This document shows positions 2,757 through 19,771 of a stretch of 50,688 nt of DNA, piece by piece. This DNA is from Bacteroidota bacterium (GTDB lineage Bacteria; Verrucomicrobiota; Verrucomicrobiia; Methylacidiphilales; UBA1321). The notes beneath the pieces are model-generated. The model was not told the DNA's origin. It did not search any database and worked only from the letters and a program-made list of their open reading frames with translations. Where the stretch lies: contig CAJCII010000217.1 of NCBI GenBank assembly GCA_903970335.1, positions 1 to 50,688 of the forward strand. Reading direction: 5' to 3'. The translations under genes were made by a program, and so were the position numbers. The stretch's first letter is position 1. Each line of letters starts with the position of its first letter.

Positions 2757-3758
2757 ATGAAGGAACGCATTTTTGTCATCGGATCGAATGCCTATACGGC
2801 TGCGGCGTTTATCGATTATTGCCTGGAGCAAGGGCTGGAAATCCAGGGCTGCAGCCGCTCGGCGGAACTGGCGACGCCGTTTCTGCCTTACAAGTGGAAA
2901 AAAGAAACGGCCCCATCGGGCAGCTTTGAATTTACCCAACTGGACCTGAATCATCACACGAACGAAATCGTGAAGAACATCCGGGACTTCGGTCCGGAGA
3001 TGGTGGTGAATTTCGCGGCGCAGAGCATGGTGGCGGAAAGCTGGCTGCACCCAGACCATTGGTACGAGACGAATGTGGTGGCGAATGTGCGGCTGCACGA
3101 CGAACTGCGCAAGTGCGCGTTCCTCCGCAATTACGTGCATGTCTCCACGCCGGAAGTTTACGGGACATGCAGCGGCCTGGTGCCGGAAAACACACCAATG
3201 AACCCAAGCACGCCGTATGCGGCCTCGCGCGCCGCGTGCGAACTGCATCTCTCCACGTTCTGGAAGAGGTACCAGTTTCCGTACAGCCTGACGCGGGCGG
3301 CGAATGTCTACGGTCCCGGCCAGCAACTCTACCGGATCATCCCGCGGACGATTTTCTTTTCCAAGACCGGACGCAGATTACCGCTGCACGGTGGCGGACA
3401 CTCGGTGCGGTCCTTCATCCACGGACGGGATGTCGCGCGCGCGACACTGGCGCTGGCCCGGCAAAAGGGCGTGGGGCAGTGCTACCATCTTTCCACGAAG
3501 ACGCACATTTCGATCCGAGACCTGGTCGGTAAAATCTGTACGCGACTCGGCCTGGCGCTGGAAGACGTTGCCGAAATCACCGAGGACCGTCCGGGTAAGG
3601 ATGCGGCTTATCTTCTCGACAGCGCCAAGGCCAAGGCCGAGCTGGGATGGGAGCCCGAAATTTCGCTGGAGCAAGGCATCGAGGAAACGATCCGCTGGAT
3701 CGAGGCAAACCTCGACGAACTAAAACAACAACCGGCCGACTACCAACACAAGGCATGA
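2757..3758 (+). CDS. NAD(P)-dependent sugar-nucleotide epimerase/dehydratase (extended SDR)
   Basis: This 333-residue extended SDR resembles nucleotide-sugar 4,6-dehydratases and epimerases. VHVSTPEVYG (S130-G136), RAANVYGPGQQ and SVRSFIHGRDVA are typical substrate and cofactor elements. Two motifs are unusual: the N-terminal glycine-rich loop reads VIGSNAYTAAAF instead of GxxGxxG, and the catalytic YxxxK is Y154-A-A-S-R158. Related proteins recalled from LPS-type loci carry GSNSFSG and YxxSR, so these may be subfamily traits rather than decay. The ATG at 2757 follows a GGAGG-like site (from 2738) and is preferred over the GTG at 2736. It is the first gene of a tightly packed run, and its stop overlaps the next start (ATGA). 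The substrate is unknown. Confidence 0.85.
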   Translation: MKERIFVIGSNAYTAAAFIDYCLEQGLEIQGCSRSAELATPFLPYKWKKETAPSGSFEFTQLDLNHHTNEIVKNIRDFGPEMVVNFAAQSMVAESWLHPDHWYETNVVANVRLHDELRKCAFLRNYVHVSTPEVYGTCSGLVPENTPMNPSTPYAASRAACELHLSTFWKRYQFPYSLTRAANVYGPGQQLYRIIPRTIFFSKTGRRLPLHGGGHSVRSFIHGRDVARATLALARQKGVGQCYHLSTKTHISIRDLVGKICTRLGLALEDVAEITEDRPGKDAAYLLDSAKAKAELGWEPEISLEQGIEETIRWIEANLDELKQQPADYQHKA

Positions 3759-4825
3759 CCACCAACACCATCCAACCCCGTCGCATTCTCGTTACCGGAG
3801 GCTGCGGGTACGTCGGCAGCGCACTGCTGCCCCATTTGCTGCGTCTCGGACATCACGTGCGCGCCATCGATTTGATCCTTTACTCCGACGCGGGCGTGAA
3901 GAGCCTGAAGGCCAGCCCCGAATTCGAACAATGGCAGAACCGCTTCGAACTAGTCGTGGGCGACCTGCGACACGAGGAGACGATGCGGGAGGCGTTGCGC
4001 GGCTGCGATACGGTGATTCACTTGGCGGCAATTTCGAACGATCCGACCGGAGAGCTGGACGAGGCGCTCACGCGGCAGGTGAATTTCGACGCGATCGGGA
4101 TGATGCTGGCGCTGGCGAAGGAAGCCGGAGTGACCCGGTTCATCAATGCATCGTCGAGCAGCGTTTTCGGGATCAAGAATGTGCCGGACGTGACCGAGGA
4201 ACTGGAGGCGGAACCGCTGACGTTCTACTCGAAGTACAAGGCGCTTTCCGAGTGGCTGGTAGTTGCGGCGGCATCGCGCGAGTTTTGCGCGGTAAATATC
4301 CGTCCCGCGACGATCTGCGGTTATTCGCCCCGGCAGCGTTTCGACCTGACGGTGAACAAGCTGACGGCGGATGCGGTGCGCAAGGGGGTAATTACGGTGC
4401 ACGGCGGACAGCAGCGCCGACCGAATGTGGGCATGAGCGATGCGATCAATCTCTATGCGATATTGACCCAGACCGATCCCGCGCTGATCAACGGCCAGAC
4501 GTTCAACTTCGGCTTTGAGAACCACACGGTGCTGGCCATCGCGCAGCTCATCCAAGCTGAGTTGAAGGACCTGAACGTGAGCATCAAGGTCACGGACACG
4601 AACGACCACCGGGACTATCACATCTCCTCGGCCAAGCTGATCAAGTACCTCGGTTACAAGCCGGTCAGTTCCATCGCGATGGAGGTGGCCAATCTTCGCC
4701 GTGCGCTGGACGGCGGGCAGTTCCCCGACATCGATGCGAGCGAGCATTACAACATGAAGTGTATGAAACTGGCACGGGACAACGGCACCTATCGGTTTTT
4801 ATCGCGTCCACCCTCGCATGTTTAG
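3755..4825 (+). CDS. NAD(P)-dependent sugar epimerase/dehydratase (extended SDR)
   Basis: This 356-residue protein has the full set of extended-SDR motifs: ILVTGGCGYVGS with glycines 15, 18 and 21, ASSSSVFG at 132-139 and the catalytic Y158-S-K-Y-K162. IRPATICGYSPRQRFD and the later MSDAINLY lie in the substrate domain. It is probably a UDP-glucose epimerase-like or NDP-sugar dehydratase-like enzyme acting in the cytoplasm on the activated sugar made by this locus. The ATG overlaps the stop of the preceding SDR by four bases, which fixes the start and implies translational coupling. The exact reaction (4-epimerase, 4,6-dehydratase or reductase) cannot be told from sequence. Confidence 0.85.
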   Translation: MTTNTIQPRRILVTGGCGYVGSALLPHLLRLGHHVRAIDLILYSDAGVKSLKASPEFEQWQNRFELVVGDLRHEETMREALRGCDTVIHLAAISNDPTGELDEALTRQVNFDAIGMMLALAKEAGVTRFINASSSSVFGIKNVPDVTEELEAEPLTFYSKYKALSEWLVVAAASREFCAVNIRPATICGYSPRQRFDLTVNKLTADAVRKGVITVHGGQQRRPNVGMSDAINLYAILTQTDPALINGQTFNFGFENHTVLAIAQLIQAELKDLNVSIKVTDTNDHRDYHISSAKLIKYLGYKPVSSIAMEVANLRRALDGGQFPDIDASEHYNMKCMKLARDNGTYRFLSRPPSHV

Positions 4826-6356
4826 CCACAAGATCATCGAGTTCGGCAAGATCGGCGCGGTCCTCGATCAGGTCCGCGCGGAGGGGAAAAAGATTGTCCA
4901 GTGTCATGGGACGTTCGATCTCATCCATCCGGGCCACATCTATCACCTGGAGGAAGCGAAGGGCTACGGCGACATTTTGGTGGTGACCCTGACGGCGGAG
5001 AAATTCGTCAACAAGGGACCGGGACGGCCCTACTTCAACGACAAGCTGCGGGCGCGCAGCCTGGCCGCGCTGGGTTGCGTCGATTATGTCGTGGTGGTGC
5101 CCTATTCGGCAGCGGTGGAGGCGATCACAACGGTACGTCCGAATATTTACTGCAAGGGCCGCGAATACGCGGACGCAGGCAACGATGTCACGGGCAATAT
5201 CCGCGACGATGTCGCTGCGGTGGAGAAAATCGGCGGCGAGACCCACTACCTCGGCTCGGTCGTTTTCAGCTCGAGCAAGCTGATCAACAGCCACTTCGAC
5301 CATGTACCGGTCGAGGTCAAACAGATTTGCCAGGAACTGGCGAAGAATCACCCGCCGGAAAAAATCCGGGATGCGGTGGAAAATCTTTCCAACCTACGGG
5401 TGCTGGTGGTGGGGGACATTATCTTCGATCGATACAACTACGTTCGGGTGCAGGGGCTGACTTCCAAGAACCGCATTCTTTCCGGACGCCACCTTTACGA
5501 AGACACACAGCCGGGCGGAGCGCTGGCGGTCTTCAATCACATCAAGCAATTCACGCCGCACATCCGGCTGGTGAGCCTGTTGGGAGAGGAATCCTGGAGC
5601 CTGGAGCTTTTACGGCAGTCGGTGAGCGCGGAGCAGGACCTGGTGGTGAAGGACGCCGAGTTCACGACCATCATCAAGCAACGCTTCGTGGAATCGGCGG
5701 GAGTGGACAAGGAACTGAGCAAATTGTTTTCGGTGAATTTCATCGACGCCGAGCCGCCGAGCCTGCGTTTGCAGGAAAAGCTGATCGAGCATGTGGTCGG
5801 TGCGATGGCGGAAGTGGATTTGGTGGTGGTGGCCGATTTCGGCCACGGCGTGATGTCGGACCTGTTGCGGGAATGCGTGCAGAACAAGGCCCCGTTCATG
5901 GCCCTGAACTGCCAGACGAACAGCAACAACCACGGCTTCAACATCATCTCCCACCAGTACCAGCGGGCGGACTGCTTTTCGCTGGACGAACAGGAACTGC
6001 TGCTTTCGAGCGCGCGCAAGCACATCGACTATACGAAGGAATTGGAGGGCTTGCGCACGCGGCTGAAGGCATCCTCGGCCTGGCTGACCCGCGGCGGAGT
6101 CGAGACGATCGGTCTGGCCGAAGGAAGCAAGCCGTTTGTGTGCCTGCCGCTGGAGTCGGCGATTAAAGACACGGTGGGCGCGGGCGATGCGTTTTTTTCC
6201 GTGGCGGCGTTGGCGGCAGCCCATAAGCTACCGATCGACCTGACCACGTTCCTCGGGCAATTGGCCGGGGCGCAGGCGGTGAAAATCATAGGCAATTCGC
6301 AACCGATCTCGAAGGCAACCTTGTTGAAGAGCGCAATGTCCCTGACTAATTTCTAA
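4818..6356 (+). CDS. Bifunctional nucleotidylyltransferase / PfkB sugar kinase (HldE-like, reversed order)
   Basis: This 512-residue fusion has an N-terminal cytidylyltransferase-type domain (about 20-165) with CHGTFDLIHPGH containing the HxGH motif H37-H40, then FSSSKLIN as the counterpart of the usual ISTTKI loop. The C-terminal half (about 190-512) is a PfkB/ribokinase-type kinase with VVGDIIFDRYNYV at its start, VADFGHGVMS in the middle and the catalytic GAGD at 454-457. E. coli HldE, which makes ADP-heptose precursors, has the kinase first and the nucleotidylyltransferase second, so the order here is reversed. The protein probably phosphorylates a sugar or sugar phosphate and attaches a nucleotide. 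It overlaps the upstream SDR gene by eight bases. Substrate and nucleotide (ADP or CDP) are unknown. Confidence 0.85.
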   Translation: MFSHKIIEFGKIGAVLDQVRAEGKKIVQCHGTFDLIHPGHIYHLEEAKGYGDILVVTLTAEKFVNKGPGRPYFNDKLRARSLAALGCVDYVVVVPYSAAVEAITTVRPNIYCKGREYADAGNDVTGNIRDDVAAVEKIGGETHYLGSVVFSSSKLINSHFDHVPVEVKQICQELAKNHPPEKIRDAVENLSNLRVLVVGDIIFDRYNYVRVQGLTSKNRILSGRHLYEDTQPGGALAVFNHIKQFTPHIRLVSLLGEESWSLELLRQSVSAEQDLVVKDAEFTTIIKQRFVESAGVDKELSKLFSVNFIDAEPPSLRLQEKLIEHVVGAMAEVDLVVVADFGHGVMSDLLRECVQNKAPFMALNCQTNSNNHGFNIISHQYQRADCFSLDEQELLLSSARKHIDYTKELEGLRTRLKASSAWLTRGGVETIGLAEGSKPFVCLPLESAIKDTVGAGDAFFSVAALAAAHKLPIDLTTFLGQLAGAQAVKIIGNSQPISKATLLKSAMSLTNF

Positions 6357-6362
6357 GAGACC

Positions 6363-7400
6363 ATGAAAACCAAGGCTGCCATCCTGGTGGAACAGAAGAA
6401 GCCGCTCGTCATCGACGAGGTGGAGATTCCGCCGCTCGGGTACGGCCAGGTCCTGGTGCAGGTGAAGGTCAGCCGAATTTGCGGATCGCAGATCGGAGAA
6501 ATCGACGGAGCGAAAGGCCCGGACAAATTCCTGCCGCATTTGCTGGGACATGAGGGCGGGGGAATCGTCGTCGAGACGGGGCCGGAAGTTAGCCGGGTGC
6601 GCGCGGGAGACCATGTGGTGCTCCATTGGCGGGAAGCGAAGGGAATTCAATCGCGGCCACCGAAATACGACTGGCGCGGGAAAACCGTCAATGCCGGGTA
6701 CATCACGACGTTCAACGACTATGCGGTCGTCTCGGAAAACCGGCTGACGCCCATTCCAGCCGAGGTCGATTTCGAAGTCGCGGCATTGCTCGCAGACACC
6801 CTGACGACGGGGTTTGGGTTGATCAACAACGATGCGCACCTGAAGCTGGGAGAATCGGTGGTGGTAATCGGCTGCGGGGGTATCGGCATGGGCGTGCTGC
6901 TGGGCGCGAAACTGGCCGGGGCGTGCCCGCTCATCGGGGTCGATCTTTTTCCGCACAAGCTCGACCTGGCGCTTTCCATTGGGGCGACGCATACGATCAA
7001 CTCGAAGGAAGTCGATTTCGTGGCAGCGGCGCGGGAAATTTTGGGCGGGCCCTTTGCCGACGTGGTGATCGACGGGACGGGAAATCCCGCCGTGCTGGAG
7101 AAGGCGTTGGCGTTGACCGCGCCGCAGGGGAAATGCGTGGGCTTCGGCGTGATGCCGTACGATCGCAAACTGACGCTGAACACGTTGCCGCTGCATCTGG
7201 GCAAGACGCTGACCGGGTCGCACGGCGGATCGAGTCGGCCCGACGAGGACATTCCCCGCTACCTGCGGATGATGAAACAGAACCAGTTCCATTTGAAAAA
7301 TTTTGTGTCGCATCGCCTGCCGCTGGAGGAGATCAATGGCGCGGTGGAGAAAATGCGTTCCGGCGAAGTAGTCCACGCGATGATTCATTTTTCGTCATGA
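6363..7400 (+). CDS. Zinc-type medium-chain alcohol dehydrogenase, atypical ligands
   Basis: This 345-residue MDR-family dehydrogenase has the catalytic-zinc residues C40 (RICGSQ) and H63-E64 (LLGHEGGG) and a nucleotide-binding VVIGCGGIGMG at 167-177, with D194 suggesting NAD preference. The structural-zinc lobe with four cysteines is missing (HWREAKGIQSRPPKYDWRGK in its place). The third catalytic ligand, normally cysteine, appears as D145 in LLADTLTTGFG. It probably oxidises or reduces a sugar hydroxyl or keto group in the cluster pathway. The start ATG lies six bases after the kinase-fusion stop, and the gene overlaps the transketolase gene by four bases (ATGA). Substrate unknown. Confidence 0.85.
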   Translation: MKTKAAILVEQKKPLVIDEVEIPPLGYGQVLVQVKVSRICGSQIGEIDGAKGPDKFLPHLLGHEGGGIVVETGPEVSRVRAGDHVVLHWREAKGIQSRPPKYDWRGKTVNAGYITTFNDYAVVSENRLTPIPAEVDFEVAALLADTLTTGFGLINNDAHLKLGESVVVIGCGGIGMGVLLGAKLAGACPLIGVDLFPHKLDLALSIGATHTINSKEVDFVAAAREILGGPFADVVIDGTGNPAVLEKALALTAPQGKCVGFGVMPYDRKLTLNTLPLHLGKTLTGSHGGSSRPDEDIPRYLRMMKQNQFHLKNFVSHRLPLEEINGAVEKMRSGEVVHAMIHFSS

Positions 7401-8263
7401 GCACGCTGCCTTCACTTGCGGAATTGCAGGGCATCTCGGCCGAGTTGCGGGGCCAGGTGATCAAGATGTCGCACCAGGCGGGCACGCCCCACCTGGGTTC
7501 TTCCCTTTCCTGCATCGACCTCCTGACGGCGGCGTATTGGACGGCATTGCGGATCGACCCGGAGAAGCCGCACGATCCGAATCGCGACCGTTTTATCCTG
7601 AGCAAGGGCCATGCGGCCCCGGCACTTTACTCGGTGCTGGCCAAGCGAGGTTTTTTCAGTCCGGACTGGCTGGACACCTTTGCCACGCATGGCGCGGAGC
7701 TGGCCGAGCAGCCGAGTCCAAATTGCGCTCCGGGCGTGGAATTGGCGACCGGTTCGCTGGGACACGGATTGCCGGTGGCGCTGGGACTGGCCTTGGCCGC
7801 GAAGATTCAACCGCGGGACTACCGGGTCTTGGTGGTGCTCAGCGATGGCGAGTGCAACGAGGGTTCCGTTTGGGAAGCGGCCCTGCTCGCCCCGGCGCTG
7901 AAGCTGAATCATTTGGCGATCATGGTCGATTTCAACAAATGGCAGGCAACAGGGCGGAGCGAGGAAGTGACGAGCCTGACGCCGTTGCGGGCGAAGTGGG
8001 AGGCCTTCGGCTGGCATGCTGTCGAAGTGGACGGGCACGATCTCGCCGCACTGACGGAGGCGTTGCGCGAGGTGCCGCACCCGAGTGGAAAACCGCTGGC
8101 GATCATCGCCCATACGATCAAAGGCAAAGGTGTCTCCTTCATGGAGGACGACAACAACTGGCACTATCGCATTCCGAAGCGGGACGAGGTGAACAAGGCC
8201 TTTGCCGAACTGGGACTGCCCGCGCCGCAGTTGGCCGCCGCCAAGAGTGGGAGCGCGTCATGA
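7397..8263 (+). CDS. Transketolase, N-terminal (TPP-binding) subunit
   Basis: This 288-residue protein equals the N-terminal pyrophosphate-binding domain of transketolase. It has PHLGSSLSCIDLL, LSKGHAAPALY (H72), ATGSLGHGLPVALG, and the ThDP/Mg motif with D150-G151-E152 and N154 (SDGECNEG). A complete transketolase needs the PYR domain, encoded by the next gene with a four-base overlap, so the enzyme is a split two-subunit form. Its place inside a sugar-nucleotide operon rather than with pentose-phosphate genes suggests that it moves a two-carbon ketol unit onto or off a dedicated sugar precursor. That role is inference. Confidence 0.92.
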   Translation: MSTLPSLAELQGISAELRGQVIKMSHQAGTPHLGSSLSCIDLLTAAYWTALRIDPEKPHDPNRDRFILSKGHAAPALYSVLAKRGFFSPDWLDTFATHGAELAEQPSPNCAPGVELATGSLGHGLPVALGLALAAKIQPRDYRVLVVLSDGECNEGSVWEAALLAPALKLNHLAIMVDFNKWQATGRSEEVTSLTPLRAKWEAFGWHAVEVDGHDLAALTEALREVPHPSGKPLAIIAHTIKGKGVSFMEDDNNWHYRIPKRDEVNKAFAELGLPAPQLAAAKSGSAS

Positions 8264-9180
8264 GAAACGCCTTCGCAGACGAGATCACCGCGCGGGCCAA
8301 AGCGGACGAGCGGATTGTTTTGCTTTCCGGCGATATTGGGAACCGCCTGTTCGATAAATTCAAGGAAGCCTGCCCGACGCGCTTCTATAATTGCGGCGTG
8401 GCGGAGGCGAACATGGTCGGCATGGCGGCGGGTCTGGCCATGTGCGGGCTGCGCCCGGTCTGCTACACGATCGCGCCGTTTTTGACCTACCGCTGCATGG
8501 AGCAGATTCGTGTCGATCTCTGCTATCACCATGTGCCGGTCGTGCTGGTGGGAACGGGATCGGGGCTGGCTTATGCCTCGCTGGGGGCAACCCATCATTC
8601 CTGCGAGGAAGTGGGAATGCTGCGACTCCTGCCGGGCCTGAACGTGATGGCTCCCGGAGACGCTTGGGAGGTGCGCGGCTGCCTGAGCGCGGCCCTGGCG
8701 GACGAGAATCCGACCTACATCCGGATCGGCAAGAAGGGCGAGCCGCTGGTGCATGGATCACGACCGGAGATCCGGCTGGGGCAGGCCCTGCAACTTTCGG
8801 AAGGACGGGAAGTCGCGCTGCTGAGTTCCGGGGCGATGCTGCCCGAGGTGGTCGCGCTGGGCAAGCTTCTGGAAAGCCAGGGCATGCGCCCCGCCGTTTA
8901 CAGCCTGCCGACGGTCAAGCCTTTGGACACGGCGTTGCTGGAGAAGGTTTTTGCCGATTTCCGGGTGATCGCCACGGTGGAAGAACACAGTGTGCTGGGG
9001 GGGCTGGGGGGATCGATCGCGGAGTGGAAAGCGGATCGCCCGAAAATGCCGGGGCGACTGCTGCGCTTCGGCACCGAGGATGTTTTTTTGCACGAGACCT
9101 GCGAACAGGAGGAGGCGCGCGAGCATTTCGGCCTGACCTCGCAAAAGATGGCGGAGCGGATCGCCGCGGCCTTGCGCTGA
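8260..9180 (+). CDS. Transketolase, C-terminal (PYR and C) subunit
   Basis: This 306-residue protein carries the pyrimidine-binding domain with the catalytic glutamate E49 in NCGVAEANMVGMAAGLA, followed by the transketolase C-terminal domain (from about 180, with VKPLDTALL and TVEEHSVLGGLGG). It pairs with the preceding N-terminal subunit, and the ATGA overlap favours equimolar synthesis. It also resembles DXS-type and dehydrogenase E1-beta halves, but pairing with a transketolase N-half argues for transketolase chemistry. Ten bases later the HAD gene begins. Confidence 0.92.
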   Translation: MRNAFADEITARAKADERIVLLSGDIGNRLFDKFKEACPTRFYNCGVAEANMVGMAAGLAMCGLRPVCYTIAPFLTYRCMEQIRVDLCYHHVPVVLVGTGSGLAYASLGATHHSCEEVGMLRLLPGLNVMAPGDAWEVRGCLSAALADENPTYIRIGKKGEPLVHGSRPEIRLGQALQLSEGREVALLSSGAMLPEVVALGKLLESQGMRPAVYSLPTVKPLDTALLEKVFADFRVIATVEEHSVLGGLGGSIAEWKADRPKMPGRLLRFGTEDVFLHETCEQEEAREHFGLTSQKMAERIAAALR

Positions 9181-9189
9181 GACCCGCTT

Positions 9190-9819
9190 GTGAATGCGTC
9201 CCACCCCTTCATCGGAATCGACCTGGACAATACGCTGGTCAGCTACGACACGCTCTTTCATCGACTCGCCTTGGAACAGGGACTGATCGACCCCGATCTG
9301 CCGGTCAATAAAACGGAGGTGCGCGATTTCCTGAGGAAAGTGGGCAAGGAACCGGCTTGGACGGCCCTGCAGGGACTGGCCTACGGTACGCGGATGCGGG
9401 AGGCGGAAGCATTTGCGGGCGCGCTCGATTTCCTCCGCGAAGGGACTCGTCGAGGTTGGAGGATGCATATTGTCAGTCACAAGACGCGGCATCCGATTGT
9501 GGGCGATCCGATTGATCTGCACGAGGCGGCCCGCGGCTGGCTCGACGCCAAATCGATTCACGACGGGATAGGCTTTCTGCGGGAGAATGTCTGGTTTGAG
9601 TTGACGAAGGCGGCGAAGATCCAGCGGATTCGGGAATTGGGGTGCGAGTTCTTTATCGACGACTTGCCGGAGCTGCTGCTGGACCCGCAGTTTCCAACGC
9701 CGACACGCCGCATTCTTTTTGCCCCGCAAGGACCGGGCGTGAAGCCACCGACCGCCGATATTGTCGTCGCCCAAAGCTGGGCGGAAATCACGAGCCTGTT
9801 GACCCATGAGTTCGCCTGA
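9190..9819 (+). CDS. HAD-superfamily phosphatase
   Basis: This 209-residue protein starts at GTG. Motif I is IGIDLDNTLV with nucleophile D11 and acid-base D13, motif II is the serine of HIVSHKTR, motif III is a lysine in ELTKAAKI, and motif IV is the acidic pair in CEFFIDDLPE. All catalytic elements of the haloacid dehalogenase fold are present, so it is probably an active phosphohydrolase. In heptose pathways a phosphatase (GmhB) acts between kinase and nucleotidylyltransferase, and this gene could play that part here, although it is not recognisably GmhB. It overlaps the following kinase gene by 14 bases. Confidence 0.8.
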   Translation: MNASHPFIGIDLDNTLVSYDTLFHRLALEQGLIDPDLPVNKTEVRDFLRKVGKEPAWTALQGLAYGTRMREAEAFAGALDFLREGTRRGWRMHIVSHKTRHPIVGDPIDLHEAARGWLDAKSIHDGIGFLRENVWFELTKAAKIQRIRELGCEFFIDDLPELLLDPQFPTPTRRILFAPQGPGVKPPTADIVVAQSWAEITSLLTHEFA

Positions 9820-10897
9820 TCCATCGGCTGCGGCGCTCGATCCGGCCGTGACCACTCTGCTGAGGCAGGCGGGCCAGGGTGAATCGAGGTATAAACTCGT
9901 TCCGATGTCGGGAGGAGCGAACAACCAAGTCTACCGGGTCGAGTTCGAGGATCGCGTTCCGCTCGTTCTCAAACGCTACTACTTTTCGCCCGACGACCGG
10001 CGCGACCGGTTCCATGCGGAAAAATCATTTTACGACCTGATCATGGCTTCGGGTATGCGCGAGCAAACTCCGCTGGCGCTGGCGTGGGACCGGGAAAACC
10101 GTCTCGGGCTATTCTCGTGGATCGAGGGTCGACGCCTCCATGCTGCCGAGGTCACGCGCGACGCCGTGGAACAGGCCCTGTCGTTTTACTTTGCGATCAA
10201 CGCCCATCGGCATCTCCCAGAGGCGTCTTCGGCACCGAATGCGTCGGAAGCCTGTTTCGATTTGGGCCAACATTTCGAGTGCGTAGAGCGGCGGTTGTCG
10301 CGGCTGGCGGGTGTCGCAACCGATTCGCCGACAGGCCGGGAAGCGGTCGATTTCATTTCCGGACGCCTAAGACCCGCTTTTGAAAAATACAAGGCGCTTT
10401 GCGCGGAAACCAAGCTCGCGAATCCGGCTCCTCTGGAGGGGACACAACGTTGCCTTTCTCCTTCCGATTTCGGCTTTCACAATGCGCTGAACCAAAGCGG
10501 CGACAGGCTGGCTTTCTTCGACTTCGAATACGCGGGCTGGGACGACCCGGCCAAATTTCTTTGTGATTTTCTTTGCCAGCCAGCCGTGCCGATCCCGCGT
10601 CCGCTTTGGTCGTACTGCATCGAATCGCTTTGTCGACCGCTGGCCGGCGGCAGCAACCGTGAACGCATCGCTCTGTTATTGCCGCTCTATCACATGAAGT
10701 GGTGCTGCATTTTGTTAAACGAGTTCCTGCCGCAAGAGCGTAACCGACGGGCCTTCTCCCAGAGGCGTTCCCCGGAGGAAATGGAGAGCCGGATGAACGA
10801 GCAACTTGGCAAGGCCCGGAATTTACTTGAAAGCCTCGCAAGCGTTGACTTAACTCAAAATTCCGGCTTCGACGACAATTTATGCGTCGCACGTTAG
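9806..10897 (+). CDS. APH/choline-kinase-fold small-molecule kinase
   Basis: This 363-residue protein has the aminoglycoside phosphotransferase fold: GGANNQVYRV as the nucleotide loop, K56 in PLVLKRY, a catalytic segment LSPSDFGFHNAL with D221 and N226, and the metal-binding D239 in FFDFEYAGWDDP. The usual HGDLHxxN appears as SPSDFGFHN, so the first histidine is lost but the catalytic aspartate and asparagine remain. In a polysaccharide locus it is more likely to phosphorylate a sugar than an antibiotic. Together with the PfkB domain it gives this operon two kinases, which would allow both a terminal and an anomeric phosphate to be made (inference). Confidence 0.7.
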   Translation: MSSPDPSAAALDPAVTTLLRQAGQGESRYKLVPMSGGANNQVYRVEFEDRVPLVLKRYYFSPDDRRDRFHAEKSFYDLIMASGMREQTPLALAWDRENRLGLFSWIEGRRLHAAEVTRDAVEQALSFYFAINAHRHLPEASSAPNASEACFDLGQHFECVERRLSRLAGVATDSPTGREAVDFISGRLRPAFEKYKALCAETKLANPAPLEGTQRCLSPSDFGFHNALNQSGDRLAFFDFEYAGWDDPAKFLCDFLCQPAVPIPRPLWSYCIESLCRPLAGGSNRERIALLLPLYHMKWCCILLNEFLPQERNRRAFSQRRSPEEMESRMNEQLGKARNLLESLASVDLTQNSGFDDNLCVAR

Positions 10898-10906
10898 CGA
10901 TCCCCG

Positions 10907-13135
10907 ATGACCACCCTACTCTCATCCAAACACCATTCGTCGGAGGTCTATCACGATATTTATGATTTTTCGATCTTCCCCATCAGCTTGGGCGACATCA
11001 TTACGTGGGGAGTAAAGTCCGCGCTTCGCGCCTCTCTCGCGGGGCGGAAAAAAGTGCATGTTCATCTGATTTGCGACACCCAAAAGGCGGGCTTTAATCC
11101 GCTACAACCTGGTACGTATTTGGTGGATTTATTGGTCGTGGAGGCTCTTCCGGCTTTTTATTCCCATCCCCTGTTTTCCGGTTTGTCCCTTTATCGATCG
11201 CGCGAGGACTTTCAGGGGACTTTTTCCAAGATAGCGCTGGAAGACGATCTCGCCCAAGAAGCCTATCGGGAAAACGAGGTTAAGTTCAAAGACCGAAAAG
11301 ATCTCGAACGGACCTGCGAATATTTCGGCTCGCGCTGCACGTTCCATGACGACGTCAACGAACACTACAAGAAAACCGGGACATTCCCGAAAGTCGGATA
11401 CCTGGAACCGAGCCTGGTCGATTGGCATGCCCTGCAATCGCAATTTCCGAAGGAGACATTTTGGGTAACGGTCCAATTTCGCCTGCGCAAGCTGGATGGC
11501 GGGATGCCGATTTTATCGGAGGAAGGCCTACGCCGGGACGCGCCATTCCTGACTTGGTACAACTTTATCAGTGAAGCCAACAAGGAGCACCCCTCTGTCC
11601 GTTTTGTCCTGCTCGGTCGATTGCAGGAAAAACCCCTGGAACTGCTGCGCCTGCCGAATGTGGTGGTGCTTCGCCCGTTAGGCATGAATCTCAGCCATGA
11701 GATCACGGCCCTGCTTCACTCGGACTTGTACATGGGATCGGCGAGCGGATTCGCCCAGGCGGCCCACTTTAGCGAGGTGCCCTACGATATTTTCAACTGT
11801 ACACCCGCAGGGTGTAAGAATTATGGCATACCGTATGGGACGGATCGAATTCCCATTGCCACGCCCCGGCAAAGACTCCACTACGAAGTGGAAGATCCCA
11901 CGATTTTGATGGAATGCCTGAAACGTGCCCTGGAAGAAAGCCCGAAAAAGATCTCCCAGCCCGGAACTCTCGAAACAAATCGCGCCGTCAGTACGAACCG
12001 CTTTTTTCTCGACGATGCCCAAAGCGAGGCGGAACTCTCCGGTATCCTGTCGGTCCAGTTGATCGCCATCGCCTACGCCATCGAGCGCGGCAAGTATCAA
12101 GTCGCCCAGGACGAATTGGCCAAGCTGCGATCGTTGCCGCGATTTGTCCCGCAATGGCCCGATTTCCATTATCTTTCCAATTTGCTCGATACTTTGCTCG
12201 CGGAGGTCAGTGAGGCGGACCGAACGGAAGCCTGGCAAAACCACCGCAACGAACTGCTGGTACAAGTTTCCAGCTACTGTCATCCGACTCGTTTGATTCT
12301 CCGGAGCGGAAGGTACTTCGACAACAATCACTGCTCCGAGGGCTTTCGGCGGGACGGCTGGTGCGAGGAAAGAGCCAAACTGGTGTTTGCCGCCAGCAAA
12401 AAGGGAGATTTCCTGATCATTCAAATCGGTCGATTGGCCCTGGATGAACCGACCGCTCTTACCGTCCGCATCAACGAGCAGAAAGCCGTTCCTTTTGTGT
12501 TGCTCAATGAGCATACGGTCCTGGAGATTCCGGTGCTCGAGTTGAATATACCAACGGAAGTCTTCCTCGAGTCCGACCGGTCTTTCAAACTCAGCACGAG
12601 GGACGAAAAGAAATATTCGTACCAGATCGATGGCGCGGGGCTCGTTTCGAAACAATCGCCGATGCCGACCTCCTTTCGCGGAAACAAGAGCGATCCTCGA
12701 GAGAAAATCGCCTCGGGCATTTACGCGAATGGGAGCGCCAGCAATCTTGCGCGAATTCGCATCGACAACCCCCTCCCCGAGAGCGAAGAGATCATGGTGC
12801 GGGTGACCGGCACGCTGCCCTTGCGGTTGCAGCGGGGACAAAACTTCCGCATCCAAATCAACGACGACGAGGCGCTTGAGACGTTCATTTCCGGCAAACA
12901 TTTCCAAGCCTGCCTTCCCTGCCCCGGGCGACCACGGCATCTTTCCATTCTCCTGCAATTCTGGGACAAAAATGGAAGTGAAATGGAACCGAAGGAAAAT
13001 CGCGCCGTCATCAAGCAAATCGACATCCTTCCCCGCACCTCGAAAAATACCTCCGTCAGGAGCGGCCATCTCGCCAGTGTCAATTATGCGCTGAGCACGC
13101 TGAAGGCGAAAATCGTCAAATCTTCCGCTTCGTAG
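10907..13135 (+). CDS. Large putative glycosyltransferase with C-terminal beta domains
   Basis: This 742-residue protein was not assigned to a named family. Residues 1-360 look like a GT-B type glycosyltransferase: the N-terminal half contains alternating strands (VHVHLICD), and the second half has FWVTVQFR, VRFVLLGR, NVVVLRPLG and a nucleotide-sugar-site-like SDLYMGSASGFAQAAHFSEVP. Residues 370-460 are helical, and from about 460 to 720 two beta-rich modules follow (LVFAASKKGDFLIIQIGRL and a second around 610-700) that may bind carbohydrate. No signal peptide or membrane segment is visible, so it is probably cytoplasmic. It sits nine bases after the kinase gene and may transfer the sugar made by the operon. 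Confidence 0.5.
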   Translation: MTTLLSSKHHSSEVYHDIYDFSIFPISLGDIITWGVKSALRASLAGRKKVHVHLICDTQKAGFNPLQPGTYLVDLLVVEALPAFYSHPLFSGLSLYRSREDFQGTFSKIALEDDLAQEAYRENEVKFKDRKDLERTCEYFGSRCTFHDDVNEHYKKTGTFPKVGYLEPSLVDWHALQSQFPKETFWVTVQFRLRKLDGGMPILSEEGLRRDAPFLTWYNFISEANKEHPSVRFVLLGRLQEKPLELLRLPNVVVLRPLGMNLSHEITALLHSDLYMGSASGFAQAAHFSEVPYDIFNCTPAGCKNYGIPYGTDRIPIATPRQRLHYEVEDPTILMECLKRALEESPKKISQPGTLETNRAVSTNRFFLDDAQSEAELSGILSVQLIAIAYAIERGKYQVAQDELAKLRSLPRFVPQWPDFHYLSNLLDTLLAEVSEADRTEAWQNHRNELLVQVSSYCHPTRLILRSGRYFDNNHCSEGFRRDGWCEERAKLVFAASKKGDFLIIQIGRLALDEPTALTVRINEQKAVPFVLLNEHTVLEIPVLELNIPTEVFLESDRSFKLSTRDEKKYSYQIDGAGLVSKQSPMPTSFRGNKSDPREKIASGIYANGSASNLARIRIDNPLPESEEIMVRVTGTLPLRLQRGQNFRIQINDDEALETFISGKHFQACLPCPGRPRHLSILLQFWDKNGSEMEPKENRAVIKQIDILPRTSKNTSVRSGHLASVNYALSTLKAKIVKSSAS

Positions 13136-13156
13136 ACCTCAACTTTTCTATTTCCC

Positions 13157-13819
13157 ATGGCCTATCTCGATCTGGTATCTCCCCTCCACAAAAAAACCGT
13201 GAGAGACTATCTCGCACGGGTAAACGAAATTCCGAAAGCCGAGGCGGCGCGCCTGGCCAAACAATGGGGAAAGGACTACTGGGACGGAGATCGGAAGCAC
13301 GGGTACGGCGGTATGCGCTACGATGGCCGGTGGCGTCCCGTGGCCGAGCTTCTCGCCCGGCACTACGGTCTGCAAGCCGGGCAACGAGTCCTGGACATCG
13401 GTTGCGGAAAGGGCTTTTTACTTTACGATCTGACCCAGGTTGTTCCCGGGCTGGAAGTGGTCGGCCTGGATATTTCCGCCTACGCCATCGAGAAGGCAAA
13501 GCCCGAAGTGCAACCGTTTCTACAAGCCGGTCACGCGCAAAGCCTGCCCTTTCCCGATGCGAGTTTCGATTTGGCGATTTCCATCAATACCCTCCACAAC
13601 CTCTACTGCCATGAATTGGATGCCGCTTTGCGGGAGATGCAGCGCGTGACCAGGAAAAATTCCTATTTGGTGGTCGAGTCCTATCGCAACGAGGAGGAAA
13701 AGGCGAACCTGCTCTATTGGCAACTCACATGCGAATCGTTCTTCACGCCGGAGGAATGGCAATGGTGGTTCACGCAGACCGGTTATACCGGTGATCACAG
13801 CTTTATTTATTTTGAGTAA
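13157..13819 (+). CDS. Class I SAM-dependent methyltransferase
   Basis: This 220-residue methyltransferase has the SAM-binding motif VLDIGCGKG at 78-86, then VVGLDISAYAIEKAK with the ribose-binding acidic residue and LPFPDASFDLAISINTLHN as motif III. It fits the Methyltransf_11/25 type. The position between a glycosyltransferase-like gene and a sugar C-methyltransferase suggests that it methylates a sugar or glycan, but small methyltransferases of this type act on many substrates. The coding region starts about 20 bases after the preceding stop and overlaps no neighbour when the next gene is taken from 13845. Confidence 0.8.
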   Translation: MAYLDLVSPLHKKTVRDYLARVNEIPKAEAARLAKQWGKDYWDGDRKHGYGGMRYDGRWRPVAELLARHYGLQAGQRVLDIGCGKGFLLYDLTQVVPGLEVVGLDISAYAIEKAKPEVQPFLQAGHAQSLPFPDASFDLAISINTLHNLYCHELDAALREMQRVTRKNSYLVVESYRNEEEKANLLYWQLTCESFFTPEEWQWWFTQTGYTGDHSFIYFE

Positions 13820-13844: not shown

Positions 13845-14999
13845 ATGAACTCGCCGACAAATTGTCATCTTTGCGGAGTTGGGAAGCTGAGAGCGCTCGA
13901 GGCATTTTCCGACTTTCAGCAAGTCACGTCCGACTGCAAACCGTGGCCCAGCGGAGGCAAAAAGGCCTGTTGCGAAAAATGCGGCACGACGCAGGCGGTC
14001 ATCGATGAAGCCTGGAAGGAAGCCTGCCATCGGATTTACAGTTCCTACACCGTTTATCATCAGGGAGGCGGAAAGGAGCAACCGGTCTTCGACGCGAATT
14101 CAAACGCCGGAACTCCTCGCTCGTTGAAATTGCTGAATAAATTAACGCAGGAAATCGACTTGCCCGAAGATGGTCGCGCCCTCGATATCGGTTGTGGAAA
14201 TGGGAACTTTATCCGCAGTTTTTCCGCAGTCCGCCCCAAGTGGCGGCTAAATGGTGCGGAATACAACCGGCTTTGCGAAACCGAGGTCCTATCCATCGCC
14301 GGGGTGGAAGGTTTTTACTCGGGAGAACTTGAAACGATCCCCGGACCTTTCGATTTTGTCTCTCTGATTCATGTGCTGGAGCACATCGAAAATCCCGTTC
14401 CCTTTCTGAAAAAAATTGCGGCGCTGGCCCCAAACGCCACGCTCCTCATCGAAGTCCCCTTTTTCCGGGACAATCCCTACGAACTTTTGATTGCGGACCA
14501 CGCCACGCACTATACGCCCAACACTTTGGCGAATATTCTGCAGGCCGCCGGTTATTCGATCCGCGCCATCCATACCGATTGGATCCTCAAGGAAATCAGC
14601 GCCGTGGCGATGGCCGCAACGACTGCGCCCACGACAACCGTCGTCAACCCCGATGAGGAATTGGCGACTGCGGTCGATGCCGTTGCCTTTCTGGACAAAG
14701 TGAGAACACACGCCAGGGAAATTCGTTCCAGAGCACAAGCTTTTGGCGTCTTTGGAACCTCGATCGGTGGGACATGGCTTTATTCCGAACTGGATGGGAA
14801 AATCGATTTCTTTGTGGATGAGGACCCTTCGCGCGTCGGGAAAAGGCATTTGGGCGTTGAAATCGTCAGTCCTTCGCAGGTTCCTCCCGGTAGTGCCATT
14901 TTCATGCCCCTGGCCGAACGAGTGGCCCGCGATGTCGTCAAGCGATTGCAAAGCGCTTCTCCGGCCGAATACCATTATCTTTCGACCTCAGCAGCTTGA
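13845..14999 (+). CDS. Sugar C-methyltransferase (NDP-hexose 3-C-methyltransferase-like)
   Basis: This 384-residue protein shows the three-part layout of sugar C-methyltransferases such as TylC3. There is an N-terminal zinc site with C7 and C10 (CHLCG) and the ACCEKCG cluster near 41-47, a central SAM domain with RALDIGCGNG at 111-120 and a C-terminal Rossmann-like domain (from about 280) with FGVFGTSIGGTWLY and FFVDEDPSRVGK. These enzymes add a branching methyl group to a keto sugar nucleotide. The ATG at 13845 is chosen because the zinc finger begins right after it. The longer frame from 13791 overlaps the previous gene. The stop overlaps the next start (TGATG context). Confidence 0.8.
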   Translation: MNSPTNCHLCGVGKLRALEAFSDFQQVTSDCKPWPSGGKKACCEKCGTTQAVIDEAWKEACHRIYSSYTVYHQGGGKEQPVFDANSNAGTPRSLKLLNKLTQEIDLPEDGRALDIGCGNGNFIRSFSAVRPKWRLNGAEYNRLCETEVLSIAGVEGFYSGELETIPGPFDFVSLIHVLEHIENPVPFLKKIAALAPNATLLIEVPFFRDNPYELLIADHATHYTPNTLANILQAAGYSIRAIHTDWILKEISAVAMAATTAPTTTVVNPDEELATAVDAVAFLDKVRTHAREIRSRAQAFGVFGTSIGGTWLYSELDGKIDFFVDEDPSRVGKRHLGVEIVSPSQVPPGSAIFMPLAERVARDVVKRLQSASPAEYHYLSTSAA

Positions 15000-15862
15000 T
15001 GAACACCGGCGTTCTCGTCATCGGCGTTAACGGATTGATCGGTTCGAGCCTGGCGGAGTTGGCTCAGCGAGACGGGATCGACTGGATCGGGACAAGCCGA
15101 AAGGCCAAAGCCGACGCGAACGCAATCAAGGAGCTTGATTTGCTGAACGACGACCAGATTCGCAATTTGTCCTTTCGCCCCAAGATTACGTATCTCTGCG
15201 CGGCGGAAACAAATATCCGCAAGTGCCAAAGCAATCCCGAAGCGACTGGAAAAATAAATATCGAACAGACGGTCAAGCTTGCCAAACACTTGCATCAAGC
15301 CGGTTCGGCCATTGTGTTTTTATCCTCGAATCTCGTTTTCGATGGAAACCATCCGCACGTTCGGCCCGATCAAATGACGGCGCCCCAAACCGAATATGGC
15401 CGGCAAAAAGCCGAGACGGAAAAAATCCTACTCGGCGAATTGAAGCACATTGCAGTCGTGCGCCTGACCAAAGTGGTGCATCAAGATTTTGCGCTTTTTA
15501 AAGAATGGCTTTCGGCATTGTCCCAGAGACGCACCATACGTCCGTTCTCGGACATGCCCTTTTGTCCGATCCAGCTTTCTGTGGTGGCGGAAGAACTGTG
15601 GGTCTTAAGTCGTGACTTCGCGCCGGGGATATTTCAACTCTCCGGCGATGCCGATCTTTCCTATGCTTCAGCCGCACAGTTTCTCGCTCAATGCCGGGGA
15701 ATCGACCACGAACTCGTAAAGCCGCAAACGACCGCCGAAGCCGGTTTCTCCCAGTACTTTCCCAGACACACCACGCTGCTCCACAGGCCGATCCGCACCG
15801 GACAAGAACCCATGCCTGTTTTCACGACCTTGGAGCGAATTTTCGGCTCGCTCCAGCGTTAG
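14999..15862 (+). CDS. RmlD-like NAD(P)-dependent sugar reductase
   Basis: This 287-residue short SDR has VLVIGVNGLIGSSL (glycines 9, 12 and 15), FLSSNLVFDG and the catalytic Y133-G-R-Q-K137. The pattern is that of dTDP-4-dehydrorhamnose reductases (RmlD), which reduce a 4-keto sugar nucleotide. Directly after a C-methyltransferase, which needs a keto-sugar substrate, a reductase that finishes the sugar makes biochemical sense. The start is fixed by overlap with the preceding stop, and a TTG one codon upstream is less likely. It converges with the next gene, 35 bases away. Confidence 0.75.
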   Translation: MNTGVLVIGVNGLIGSSLAELAQRDGIDWIGTSRKAKADANAIKELDLLNDDQIRNLSFRPKITYLCAAETNIRKCQSNPEATGKINIEQTVKLAKHLHQAGSAIVFLSSNLVFDGNHPHVRPDQMTAPQTEYGRQKAETEKILLGELKHIAVVRLTKVVHQDFALFKEWLSALSQRRTIRPFSDMPFCPIQLSVVAEELWVLSRDFAPGIFQLSGDADLSYASAAQFLAQCRGIDHELVKPQTTAEAGFSQYFPRHTTLLHRPIRTGQEPMPVFTTLERIFGSLQR

Positions 15863-17260: not shown

Positions 17261-18673
17261 ATGTATTATACCGATACGCTCTTTCTGCTGCTCTTTGCGG
17301 GCGTTTGGGTCATCACGCGGCTTCTCCATCCCTGGCCCGCGATCAAAGAATGGTTCCTGATCTTTTTCAGCCTCTTCGTCATCGCCAGTTGGGGCACTTA
17401 TGATTTGACCCTGTTTCTCGTCGTCCTGACGGTCAACTTTTTTATCGCCCGGGCCATCAGCCGGGCAGGCCCGAATAATTCCCGCCGCCTTCTGGCAGCC
17501 ATCATTACACTGGACGTCGCAACTCTGGCGATTTTCAAGTACGCCAATTTCCTGGGCGGAACCTTCGGCACCCTTACCGGCCATGTCATCCCTGCTTTCC
17601 CTCTCGGCATCCCCCTCGCGATTTCGTTCTATATCTTTCACCTCATCAGCTACCTCGTCGATATCCACGCCGGGCGGGTGAAGCTCGCCACTTTCCGCGA
17701 ATATTTCTTTTACCTCAGCTTTTTCCCTCACGTCATCGCCGGCCCCATCGTGCGCGCCTGGCAACTCGTCCCGCAAATCGGCTCCCGCCGCTGGCGCCGA
17801 CTCGACCTCCCGATCGGGCTGCATTTCTTCATTACGGGCTTCTTCCTGAAATCGGTGGTCTCCAATAATATTGCGGGATTCGATGCCAAGGCCATTCCCG
17901 AATTCCAGGGCGGCATCGATTCGGTTTGGAGCGGCACGGCTGATTTCCCCCTCTCCACCGCCGATCACTGGGCGGTCGCCTTTCTTTATTACTGCCAGAT
18001 TTACAGCGATTTCGCCGGCTACAGCCTGATGGCACTCGGGATGTCCCGCCTCCTTGGTTACCGGTTGCCCGCCAACTTTCGTTCCCCCATGCGTGCGGCC
18101 AGTTTTCAGGAATTCTGGCAACGCTGGCACATCACGCTCTCCCACTGGCTTCGCGATTACCTCTATATTCCGCTGGGAGGCGGACGAGCCACGCCGGTGC
18201 GCGTCACCGGAAATGTCATGGTGACGATGCTCCTCGGCGGCCTCTGGCACGGCGCAGGCTGGGGTTTCGTCATTTGGGGGGCCATGCATGGCACCGGACT
18301 CGTCGTCGAGCGGATGCTCGGGCGGCGCAATCTCCCAGCCTATACCTGGAGTTGGGCGGGATGGTGGCTCGTCACCCAAACCTGGGTGACCCTCACGTGG
18401 GTCTTCTTCCGCGCCCCCTCGCTACCCCAAGCCTTTGCCTTCATCCGGGACATGTTCACGCTCAGCCCACACCCGTTTCATCTCGCCGATCAAATCGCCG
18501 GGCTCTGGATCTGCGCGCTTCCGGTTCTTCTCCATCAAACCGCTCCGCTCTTGATCTGGAAAATCGGTCGTCGTCGTTTGCCGCTGGCGCTGGGGTGCAT
18601 GACCGCCGTGTTGCTGGTGCTTAACGTGGTGGTGATTTCACCCGCTAAGGTCTTCATCTATTTCAAGTTTTAG
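17261..18673 (+). CDS. MBOAT membrane-bound O-acyltransferase (AlgI/PatA-like)
   Basis: This 470-residue polytopic membrane protein of the AlgI type passes acyl groups, usually acetyl, across the inner membrane for O-acylation of extracellular polysaccharide or peptidoglycan. The family signatures are present: FWQRWHITLSHWLRDYLYIP with H290, and the catalytic LLGGLWHGAGW with H330. Around ten hydrophobic segments are spread over the whole length. In known systems the periplasmic transfer step is done by an SGNH-type partner (AlgJ/AlgX, PatB), and two such candidates follow directly. Confidence 0.93.
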   Translation: MYYTDTLFLLLFAGVWVITRLLHPWPAIKEWFLIFFSLFVIASWGTYDLTLFLVVLTVNFFIARAISRAGPNNSRRLLAAIITLDVATLAIFKYANFLGGTFGTLTGHVIPAFPLGIPLAISFYIFHLISYLVDIHAGRVKLATFREYFFYLSFFPHVIAGPIVRAWQLVPQIGSRRWRRLDLPIGLHFFITGFFLKSVVSNNIAGFDAKAIPEFQGGIDSVWSGTADFPLSTADHWAVAFLYYCQIYSDFAGYSLMALGMSRLLGYRLPANFRSPMRAASFQEFWQRWHITLSHWLRDYLYIPLGGGRATPVRVTGNVMVTMLLGGLWHGAGWGFVIWGAMHGTGLVVERMLGRRNLPAYTWSWAGWWLVTQTWVTLTWVFFRAPSLPQAFAFIRDMFTLSPHPFHLADQIAGLWICALPVLLHQTAPLLIWKIGRRRLPLALGCMTAVLLVLNVVVISPAKVFIYFKF

Positions 18674-18683
18674 CTTCCAGCCC

Positions 18684-19721
18684 ATGAAAACCGCCGCTTT
18701 CGCCCGCTCCTTTTGGTTCGCGTTACTGCCCACTGCGGCGGTTCTTTTGTTTTGCCTCCACCTCTCGTGGAAACACGAATACCGAAAACTTCCGCCACGG
18801 ATCGGCGCTCCCATTTGGGCAAAGTCCTATGTCGCCTTTTATGACCTGGACGATAACCACGGTAATATCGACTATTACCTATTCCACACGGGCATTCTGG
18901 GATTCGGAGCGCGAATTCAACAGGCGGACCTCCTCCTCTTCGGCACGTCGCACGTTCAGTTTGGCCTGTCCGCAGGCCAGTTGGGGCAAAAGCTCTCCGT
19001 CGCCGAGGGGCATCCCGTCAAAGTCTTCAATCTCGCTCTCGCCTCGTCCGTTCTCTCGACCATCGGCGACATCGTTGCCGCCAATCATCTTCACGACAAA
19101 CCGGCCGTCTTCGATCTGTTTGTGCTCGACAACCCGGCCCATAACGTCGCAGCCAATTTTATGCTCGGCGCACTCTCATCCAATGACCTCGATGCCTATG
19201 TCCAGGTCGGCAAATGCTGGACGGAATTCTGGCGGGACTGGCTGCTCGACGACCTCCTCCCCAACCTGCGCATCGGCAACCCCGCCCGCCACGGCAAAAC
19301 AATCATATTTAAACGGTTTCTCAAATTCACCGCCATCCGCGACTCCACCAACGGCGACGTCATCGCCCTTTGGGTCCCGACCGGTCTCGTCTATCCCAAA
19401 TCGAATCAGCCCGGTCGCCCCATCGACAATTCCTTTCAGCCCTACGCCTCGCTCCCGAACGGCGGAGTCGGACGCCATCTTCAAAACAATATTCTTCAAG
19501 CGCAACACATCCACGCCATTTACACCCTGCTTCCCTTCGATGGCTCCAACCTCGGCACTGTTCCTGCCGACGCCCAACCCTTCATCCCCATTTCCCCCAA
19601 TGGGCTGGTTACTTGGGACGGTTCCCATCTCCTCGGAGAAAGCCGCACCCTCGCCACCGAACGCCTTTTCGAGGGAATGGAAAAACTCGGCATCCACATC
19701 GGTCCCTCCACCCCACCGTAA
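18684..19721 (+). CDS. SGNH-like O-acyltransferase partner of MBOAT, copy 1
   Basis: This 345-residue protein has one N-terminal membrane anchor (about 8-27, FWFALLPTAAVLLFCLHLSW), so the rest should be periplasmic. LLLFGTSHVQFGLS with S89 resembles the nucleophile block of SGNH hydrolases, and TWDGSHLLGESR near the end gives the D312-x-x-H315 pair expected in block V. This is the layout of AlgJ/AlgX/DltD-type partners that take the acyl group from an MBOAT protein. It starts ten bases after the MBOAT stop. The next gene is a close paralogue. Family assignment is by motif layout, not by close similarity to a named protein. Confidence 0.65.
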   Translation: MKTAAFARSFWFALLPTAAVLLFCLHLSWKHEYRKLPPRIGAPIWAKSYVAFYDLDDNHGNIDYYLFHTGILGFGARIQQADLLLFGTSHVQFGLSAGQLGQKLSVAEGHPVKVFNLALASSVLSTIGDIVAANHLHDKPAVFDLFVLDNPAHNVAANFMLGALSSNDLDAYVQVGKCWTEFWRDWLLDDLLPNLRIGNPARHGKTIIFKRFLKFTAIRDSTNGDVIALWVPTGLVYPKSNQPGRPIDNSFQPYASLPNGGVGRHLQNNILQAQHIHAIYTLLPFDGSNLGTVPADAQPFIPISPNGLVTWDGSHLLGESRTLATERLFEGMEKLGIHIGPSTPP

Positions 19722-19771
19722 CTTTAGCTCAGAATTGATTGCAGCCTTAATCCAACGTCGCCTCAACCCAG

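Follow-up and report, generated by a model that had tools for sequence, protein, structure and literature searches.

A split transketolase in a sugar-nucleotide operon of a Verrucomicrobiota bacterium and its candidate role in C-branched sugar biosynthesis

Gene content and recurrence of the operon

The operon considered here, a candidate source of a branched surface sugar, lies in a 50,688-nucleotide stretch of Verrucomicrobiota DNA (assembly GCA_903970335.1, contig CAJCII010000217.1, here C217), which is referred to as the window; the genome comprises 2.88 Mb in 243 contigs and is 84 % complete. On the forward strand, positions 2757–10897 are occupied by eight genes, all of which have predicted families (Pfam, NCBIfam) and which are separated by −14 to +9 bases, with ATGA overlaps at three junctions (3755, 7397 and 8260). 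They encode two short-chain dehydrogenases/reductases (SDR1 and SDR2), a nucleotidyltransferase–kinase fusion (NT_PfkB), an alcohol dehydrogenase (ADH), the two halves of a split transketolase (TK), a HAD-fold protein and an APH-fold kinase (Table 1). The initial annotation had described eight overlapping or nearly touching genes with a dedicated split TK inside a sugar-nucleotide operon, and both points are borne out by the family matches, coordinates and junctions. The same strand continues past 10897 with genes for a 742-aa protein, two methyltransferases (MT1 and MT2) and a third SDR, separated by at most 25 bases, and the operon probably extends beyond the eight genes to 15862. MT1, overlooked in the initial annotation, is a further member of the eight-gene unit.

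Table 1. Genes of the operon with their positions in the window and their family assignments (E-values of profile matches). ThDP, thiamine diphosphate; SAM, S-adenosylmethionine.
Gene	Position	Strand	Assignment	Family match or motif
SDR1	2757..3758	+	dTDP-glucose 4,6-dehydratase-like	Pfam GDP_Man_Dehyd 4.7e-44
SDR2	3755..4825	+	Epimerase/reductase-like	Pfam Epimerase 1.3e-31; motifs SSSSVFG, YSKYK
NT_PfkB	4818..6356	+	N-terminal nucleotidyltransferase and C-terminal PfkB kinase	rfaE_dom_II, rfaE_dom_I
ADH	6363..7400	+	Zinc-type alcohol dehydrogenase	ADH_zinc_N 4.8e-25, ADH_N 1e-14
TKn	7397..8263	+	Split transketolase, N-terminal (ThDP-binding) half	Transketolase_N 2.4e-36
TKc	8260..9180	+	Split transketolase, C-terminal half	Transket_pyr 1.1e-34, Transketolase_C 1.9e-18
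HAD	9190..9819	+	HAD-fold phosphatase/phosphotransferase	Pfam HAD 7.1e-05, under curated cut-off
APH	9806..10897	+	APH/choline-kinase-fold small-molecule kinase	Pfam APH 5.8e-09
742-aa protein	10907..13135	+	No known family	No Pfam or NCBIfam match
MT1	13157..13819	+	Class I SAM methyltransferase; conserved module member	Methyltransf_31 3e-22
MT2	13845..14999	+	SAM methyltransferase	Methyltransf_23 1.1e-18
SDR3	14999..15862	+	RmlD-like reductase	RmlD_sub_bind 4.9e-31

The solved proteins closest to SDR1 are dTDP-glucose 4,6-dehydratases, its best below-cutoff NCBIfam match is TIGR01181 (193 bits), and the motifs STPEVYG and YAxS(R/K) are conserved in its family alignment. The closest solved relative of TKn is the split TK 6yak.

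The proteins of the window were mapped onto about 60 stretches fetched from other genomes. The NT_PfkB fusion was found in 24 of the 388 genomes of a phylum sample (E ≤ 1e-40), and MT1 in 20 of 388 genomes of the phylum and in 41 of 384 genomes of the class (E ≤ 1e-30); many loci were picked for one of these two genes, so that their counts among the loci are partly given by construction. Genes for NT_PfkB, SDR1, SDR2, ADH, TKn, TKc and MT1, with or without HAD and APH, recur in many arrangements. The whole unit recurs in Verrucomicrobiota, the phylum of the operon's nearest named relatives, and parts of it occur in other phyla. Because the eight-gene set is found again in many genomes at about 35–75 % protein identity, it is not a chance assembly. 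A plasmid of Solidesulfovibrio (Thermodesulfobacteriota) carries HAD-APH-TKn-TKc-MT1 in that order and, elsewhere on the same replicon, NT_PfkB and a gene for a sugar isomerase of the SIS type. A search of plasmids for close DNA relatives of the window operon returned none. The whole operon is also present on a contig labelled Akkermansia muciniphila (L005), a label of a metagenome-assembled genome that may be wrong.

The 742-aa protein, of which L118 alone among the fetched loci has a relative, does not belong to the conserved module; that it is a glycosyltransferase is a guess. MT2 and SDR3 both have counterparts, at about 40 % identity, beside module loci in L117, L118, L120, L129, L132, L141 and L145, and possibly constitute a second sugar subpathway.

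Exchange of the transketolase for an E1-type pair

In 11 of the 65 loci the split TK is absent and its slot is filled by an alpha/beta pair of the pyruvate-dehydrogenase E1 type (alpha-KADH2 type), recognized by Pfam E1_dh (3.4e-64) in the alpha subunit and Transket_pyr/Transketolase_C in the beta subunit. The TK and E1 pairs are INTERCHANGED across sister loci: 43 loci hold a TK, 11 an E1 pair and none both. The correspondence of position is visible in the gene orders ADH-MT1-E1b-E1a-SDR2-NT_PfkB-SDR1-SIS (L037) and ADH-MT1-TKc-TKn-NT_PfkB-SDR2-SDR1-SIS (L123). In a quick tree of NT_PfkB (LG+G4), at least five changes between the TK and E1 types are required, four of them forced by well-supported branches. 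The N half in the window is a Transketolase_N protein, and hence the window has no alpha-KADH2 E1_dh alpha subunit; E1_dh pairs are found in sister loci such as L033.

The remaining genes are largely shared by the two types. SDR2 is present in 37 of the 43 TK loci and 10 of the 11 E1 loci, ADH in 38 of the 43 TK loci, and MT1 is found in 51 of the 54 loci that hold a TK or an E1 pair, a figure partly due to selection. Among 22 stretches picked by NT_PfkB alone, nine have the TK pair, seven the E1 pair and six neither, and MT1 occurs in all nine of the former and five of the seven E1 stretches. HAD and APH are confined to the TK type (33/43 TK loci vs 0/11 E1 loci).

E1-type pairs carry out, or have been proposed to carry out, the C2 branching of keto sugars in the biosynthesis of aldgamycin, kibdelomycin and other compounds (PMC12247030), and such a pair has been hypothesised to act in the formation of the eurekanate of everninomicin (PMC10338323). 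Because TK and E1 interchange in the same context, the simplest reading is that the TK does a job corresponding to the C2 branching ascribed to E1 pairs.

Further ThDP enzymes were noted around these loci. Several E1-type loci (L033, at 3794–5599; L034, L037, L039 and L135) have a gene for an ALS-type (acetolactate synthase) ThDP enzyme close by, so that different kinds of ThDP carboligase come together in these clusters. In L118 (genome G461; 7664–8900 and 12078–13300, on the reverse strand), two near-identical TKn-TKc copies stand on either side of MT1, APH and HAD, which is a recent duplication or an assembly artefact.

Substrate pocket and relatives of the split transketolase

The C halves of the module TKs were aligned with the ordinary TK of the same genome (L004), the split TK of Carboxydothermus (6yaj), the Agrobacterium and Rhizobium enzymes L060 and L061, and L056 and L057, which are linked to rfbF/rfbG; positions 461–473 were anchored by the motif THDS..GEDGPTH. 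Residues are numbered as in Escherichia coli TktA. The window TK keeps all the ThDP catalytic residues (H26, H66, H261, E411 and H473), while its C half has H461G, D469L and R520K and has lost S385. Across the module TKs, H461 is replaced by G in all, D469 by L in all except one (N) and R520 by K in all except one (E); S385 is replaced by a residue other than Ser, and R358, E411 and H473 are unchanged. The rfbF/rfbG-linked TKs of Methylovirgula and Paenibacillus, L056 and L057, have G at 461, A or Q at 469, K at 520 and Ser at 385. All four residues H461, D469, R520 and S385 are intact in L004 and 6yaj; the catabolic split TKs L060 and L061 have S, L, R and S at 461, 469, 520 and 385, and an Azospirillum TK (L055) has G, S and R at 461, 469 and 520. 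The combination of H461G and R520K is thus a mark of the sugar-nucleotide-linked TKs. Two split TKs were observed on the plasmid of Solidesulfovibrio carbinolicus (L053, 12519–15536 and 20899–25083), one bearing the module signature, the other having an ordinary pocket and genes for acylneuraminate cytidylyltransferase nearby.

In ordinary TKs, H461, R520 and S385 hold the substrate phosphate and D469 reads the hydroxyl of the acceptor. The loss of these residues suggests that neither the donor nor the acceptor of the module TKs need be a sugar phosphate. At position 100, the site of the donor C1 hydroxyl, the module TKs have H or Q (Q in the window) and the genome's own DXS has neither in the same alignment; this would weakly favour a hydroxylated two-carbon unit. 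A second, full-length ordinary TK is encoded on contig C178, which rules out the window TK as the only TK of the genome. Given this second enzyme and the altered pocket, a TK serving only the pentose-phosphate pathway, which the initial annotation had named as an outcome that would overturn it, is unlikely.

Among the 56 TK C halves compared in a tree, most module TKs cluster with the TKs that Methylovirgula and Paenibacillus carry next to rfbF/rfbG (support 94/90), and 6yaj falls outside this cluster. A second group of seven module TKs, including L049, L141, L148 and Solidesulfovibrio, adjoins the main group with weak support. In Methylovirgula the order is rfbF-rfbG-SDR-rfbH-TKn-TKc: a split TK comes after the genes for making a CDP-3,6-dideoxy keto sugar, in the position expected of yerE. 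The Paenibacillus cluster contains rfbF and rfbG, a methyltransferase gene, a fusion of the TK N half with an SDR, and the TK C half. By its gene families, sister loci and rfbF/rfbG-linked relatives, the window split TK is located in a nucleotide-ketosugar biosynthetic cluster.

It is highly improbable that the operon is instead a sugar-catabolic one with a dedicated split TK, similar to the operons of Agrobacterium and Rhizobium with an FGGY kinase and a transporter. The split TKs of those operons are about 35–38 % identical to the window TK, yet the catabolic enzymes form a group of their own in the tree (support 100/100), and the window TK belongs to a distinct clade and has R520K. Moreover, the window operon has no transporter, FGGY kinase or regulator gene, but encodes a nucleotidyltransferase, SDRs and methyltransferases.

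Candidate pathway and relation to known systems

The activation enzymes hint at the nature of the sugar backbone. NT_PfkB has the two domains of HldE in reversed order, with the nucleotidyltransferase first (rfaE_dom_II, residues 15–156, 3.9e-27; rfaE_dom_I, residues 187–495, 1.1e-25); both matches are below the equivalog cut-offs, and the match to the HldE equivalog PRK11316 reaches 121 bits against a cut-off of 521 bits. Its motifs HPGH and GAGDAF are intact and largely conserved in the family, and a search of the genome revealed no HldE domain II other than that of NT_PfkB. In many sister loci, SIS genes lie close to NT_PfkB and match sedoheptulose 7-phosphate isomerase models best (E about 1e-18 to 1e-25, below cut-off), and a gmhA-like gene is present elsewhere in the genome (contig C228). 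On the basis of the HldE-like domains, these SIS genes and the gmhA-like gene, the best guess for the backbone is a heptose, and the heptose-like activation enzyme proposed in the initial annotation is likewise supported. A phage, Synechococcus phage Sf-FS3 (L058, 5762–10747), was observed to carry a heptose-type module with separate nucleotidyltransferase and PfkB genes, a phosphoheptose isomerase gene and carbamoyltransferase genes.

The HAD protein has the conserved motifs DxDNT, SH(K/R), K and DDLxE; its structural model (pLDDT 95.9) is matched in Foldseek by generic HAD phosphatases, including 5′(3′)-deoxyribonucleotidases, and profile searches yielded no specific subfamily and no match to GmhB. 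The APH model (pLDDT 88.3) is closest in Foldseek to choline kinases and APH/aminoglycoside-kinase folds. HAD and APH could provide a heptose-route phosphatase and a second phosphorylation, or could act on the donor.

The reading favoured here, to which a probability of about 0.62 is assigned, is that the operon would make a nucleotide-activated C-branched sugar, probably with a heptose backbone, for a surface polysaccharide, with the TK adding a C2 branch to a ketone. Gene content, conservation, the replacement of TK by E1, the pocket residues and the tree position are direct observations, and the substrate, the donor, the branch position, the order of steps and the roles of HAD and APH are inferences. 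A heptose phosphate would arise from sedoheptulose 7-phosphate through a phosphoheptose isomerase encoded elsewhere in the genome. The PfkB domain would add a phosphate at C1, a dephosphorylation, for which the HAD protein is a possible enzyme, would follow, and the nucleotidyltransferase domain would attach the nucleotide. SDR1 would then form a ketone on the nucleotide sugar in the manner of a 4,6-dehydratase, and the split TK would transfer a two-carbon ketol unit (hydroxyacetyl) to this ketone, yielding a tertiary carbon with a two-carbon branch. ADH, SDR2 or both would reduce the branch or the ring, ADH alternatively serving as an oxidase, and MT1 would methylate the product. The split TK probably acts on the nucleotide sugar and not in the making of its precursor. 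More tentatively, the product may belong to an undescribed class of surface sugars, a heptose with a 1,2-dihydroxyethyl or hydroxyacetyl branch and nine carbons in all, built with a replaceable two-carbon cassette in which TK would give a hydroxylated and E1 an acetyl-derived branch on shared backbone machinery. Xylulose as the product, an idea taken from the literature, was discarded; searches on it returned nothing relevant.

Several observations weigh against this pathway. SDR1 was undetected in 19 of the 43 TK loci, and its activity as a 4,6-dehydratase is not assured because Pro replaces the catalytic Asp (TPE for the TDE of RmlB) and the position of the YxxxK motif reads YAxSR or YAxSK. 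The window operon lacks a SIS gene, so that its heptose backbone is deduced from relatives and from a gene in trans. D469L, which is also found in the catabolic split TKs L059, L060, L061 and L156, was ruled out as a unique marker. Finally, Streptomyces griseofuscus has a close relative of the E1 pair in a cluster for secondary metabolism that is not concerned with sugars. This last observation, together with the MBOAT acyltransferase nearby in the window, would fit a role of the split TK and the E1 pair as unrelated local suppliers of metabolites, such as acetyl or glycolyl units for polysaccharide acylation, with no part in C-branching; such a role appears very unlikely in view of the co-conservation with MT1, SDR2, ADH and NT_PfkB in dozens of loci and of the CDP-sugar context in Methylovirgula and Paenibacillus.

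The initial annotation had placed the two-carbon transfer before phosphorylation, nucleotidylation and the SDR steps. In a rival reading with that order, the TK would form an unusual higher-carbon or branched ketose phosphate, subsequently activated by an isomerase, a kinase and a nucleotidyltransferase. Octose formation for lincomycin is a parallel for a TK acting upstream in this way. TKs normally use sugar phosphates, the operon does contain genes for a kinase, a phosphatase and a nucleotidyltransferase, and the restriction of HAD and APH to the TK type also agrees with that order. However, E1 pairs in the same slot are not expected to make sugar phosphates, the phosphate-pocket residues of the TK are altered, and its relatives are encoded next to rfbF/rfbG, genes of a route that starts from glucose 1-phosphate. 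These points argue for an activated keto sugar as the acceptor, leaving the earlier order unsupported and rather unlikely. Two-carbon transfer towards a branched sugar, as such, is upheld by the exchange with E1, the pocket residues and the CDP-ketosugar relatives, and the view that the product lies outside the standard pathways agrees with the absence of a pathway match in the libraries searched.

Some neighbouring genes may be connected with C-branched sugar synthesis. Just upstream of the operon and divergent from it, a gene on the reverse strand (1313–2539) encodes an FAD enzyme that, judged from its translation, resembles L-2-hydroxyglutarate oxidase (LhgO); in L116, L118, L122, L141 and L152 relatives are found no more than 20 kb from the module, and the enzyme is possibly part of the pathway, for example in donor supply. 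On the forward strand, 17261–20812 encodes the MBOAT O-acyltransferase and, after it, a pair of paralogues of about 345 aa each (possibly DltD/AlgX-like); the first of the pair is without a match in Pfam. Relatives of both MBOAT and the 345-aa proteins are present in L033, and the region suggests O-acylation of the same polysaccharide as that of the operon. A protein resembling PIN-domain (VapC-type) proteins, as judged from its translation only, is encoded at 531–920 on the reverse strand.

The candidate pathway shares features with several described systems. In the miharamycin and amipurimycin clusters of Streptomyces, hydroxyacetyl transfer to a keto sugar has been proposed as the role of split TKs; in a 2025 review, sugar branching by split TKs is an unverified proposal with 13 candidates, all from Streptomycetes and uncharacterised in vitro (PMC12247030). 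The TK studied here is likewise split and in a biosynthetic cluster, but belongs to an HldE-like, methyltransferase-containing operon of Verrucomicrobiota and other bacteria. The alpha-KADH2 pairs of aldgamycin, kibdelomycin, paulomycin and everninomicin are also two-gene ThDP enzymes, with a known or proposed role in placing a C2 branch on a keto sugar, and pairs of this type fill the slot in sister loci; their branch is acetyl, whereas a hydroxyacetyl branch is proposed here, and the window has a TK and not an E1. YerE, in yersiniose synthesis, also builds a C-branched surface-polysaccharide sugar on a nucleotide keto sugar, but it is a single-gene ALS-type decarboxylase with a CDP-hexose precursor (CDP-3,6-dideoxy-4-ketoglucose), neither of which belongs to the window operon; a Pfam search of the operon proteins gave no ALS-type enzyme (TPP_enzyme_N/M/C). 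The ADP-heptose pathway (GmhA, HldE, GmhB) offers a related kinase–nucleotidyltransferase fusion and the SIS isomerase seen in sister loci, but in the window operon the domain order of the fusion is reversed, its scores lie well beneath the equivalog cut-off, the HAD protein is unlike GmhB, and dehydratase-like, TK and methyltransferase steps are added.

C–C branching of sugars is established for YerE-type enzymes in lipopolysaccharide and E1-type pairs in antibiotics. More than 40 related split TKs in sugar-nucleotide operons, together with their pocket signature and the E1-swapped operons, make the proposal of branching by TK directly testable, and the module TKs could yield biocatalysts for alpha-functionalised tertiary alcohols. 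If branching by TK is true, it would represent a new route to branched sugars in several bacterial phyla.

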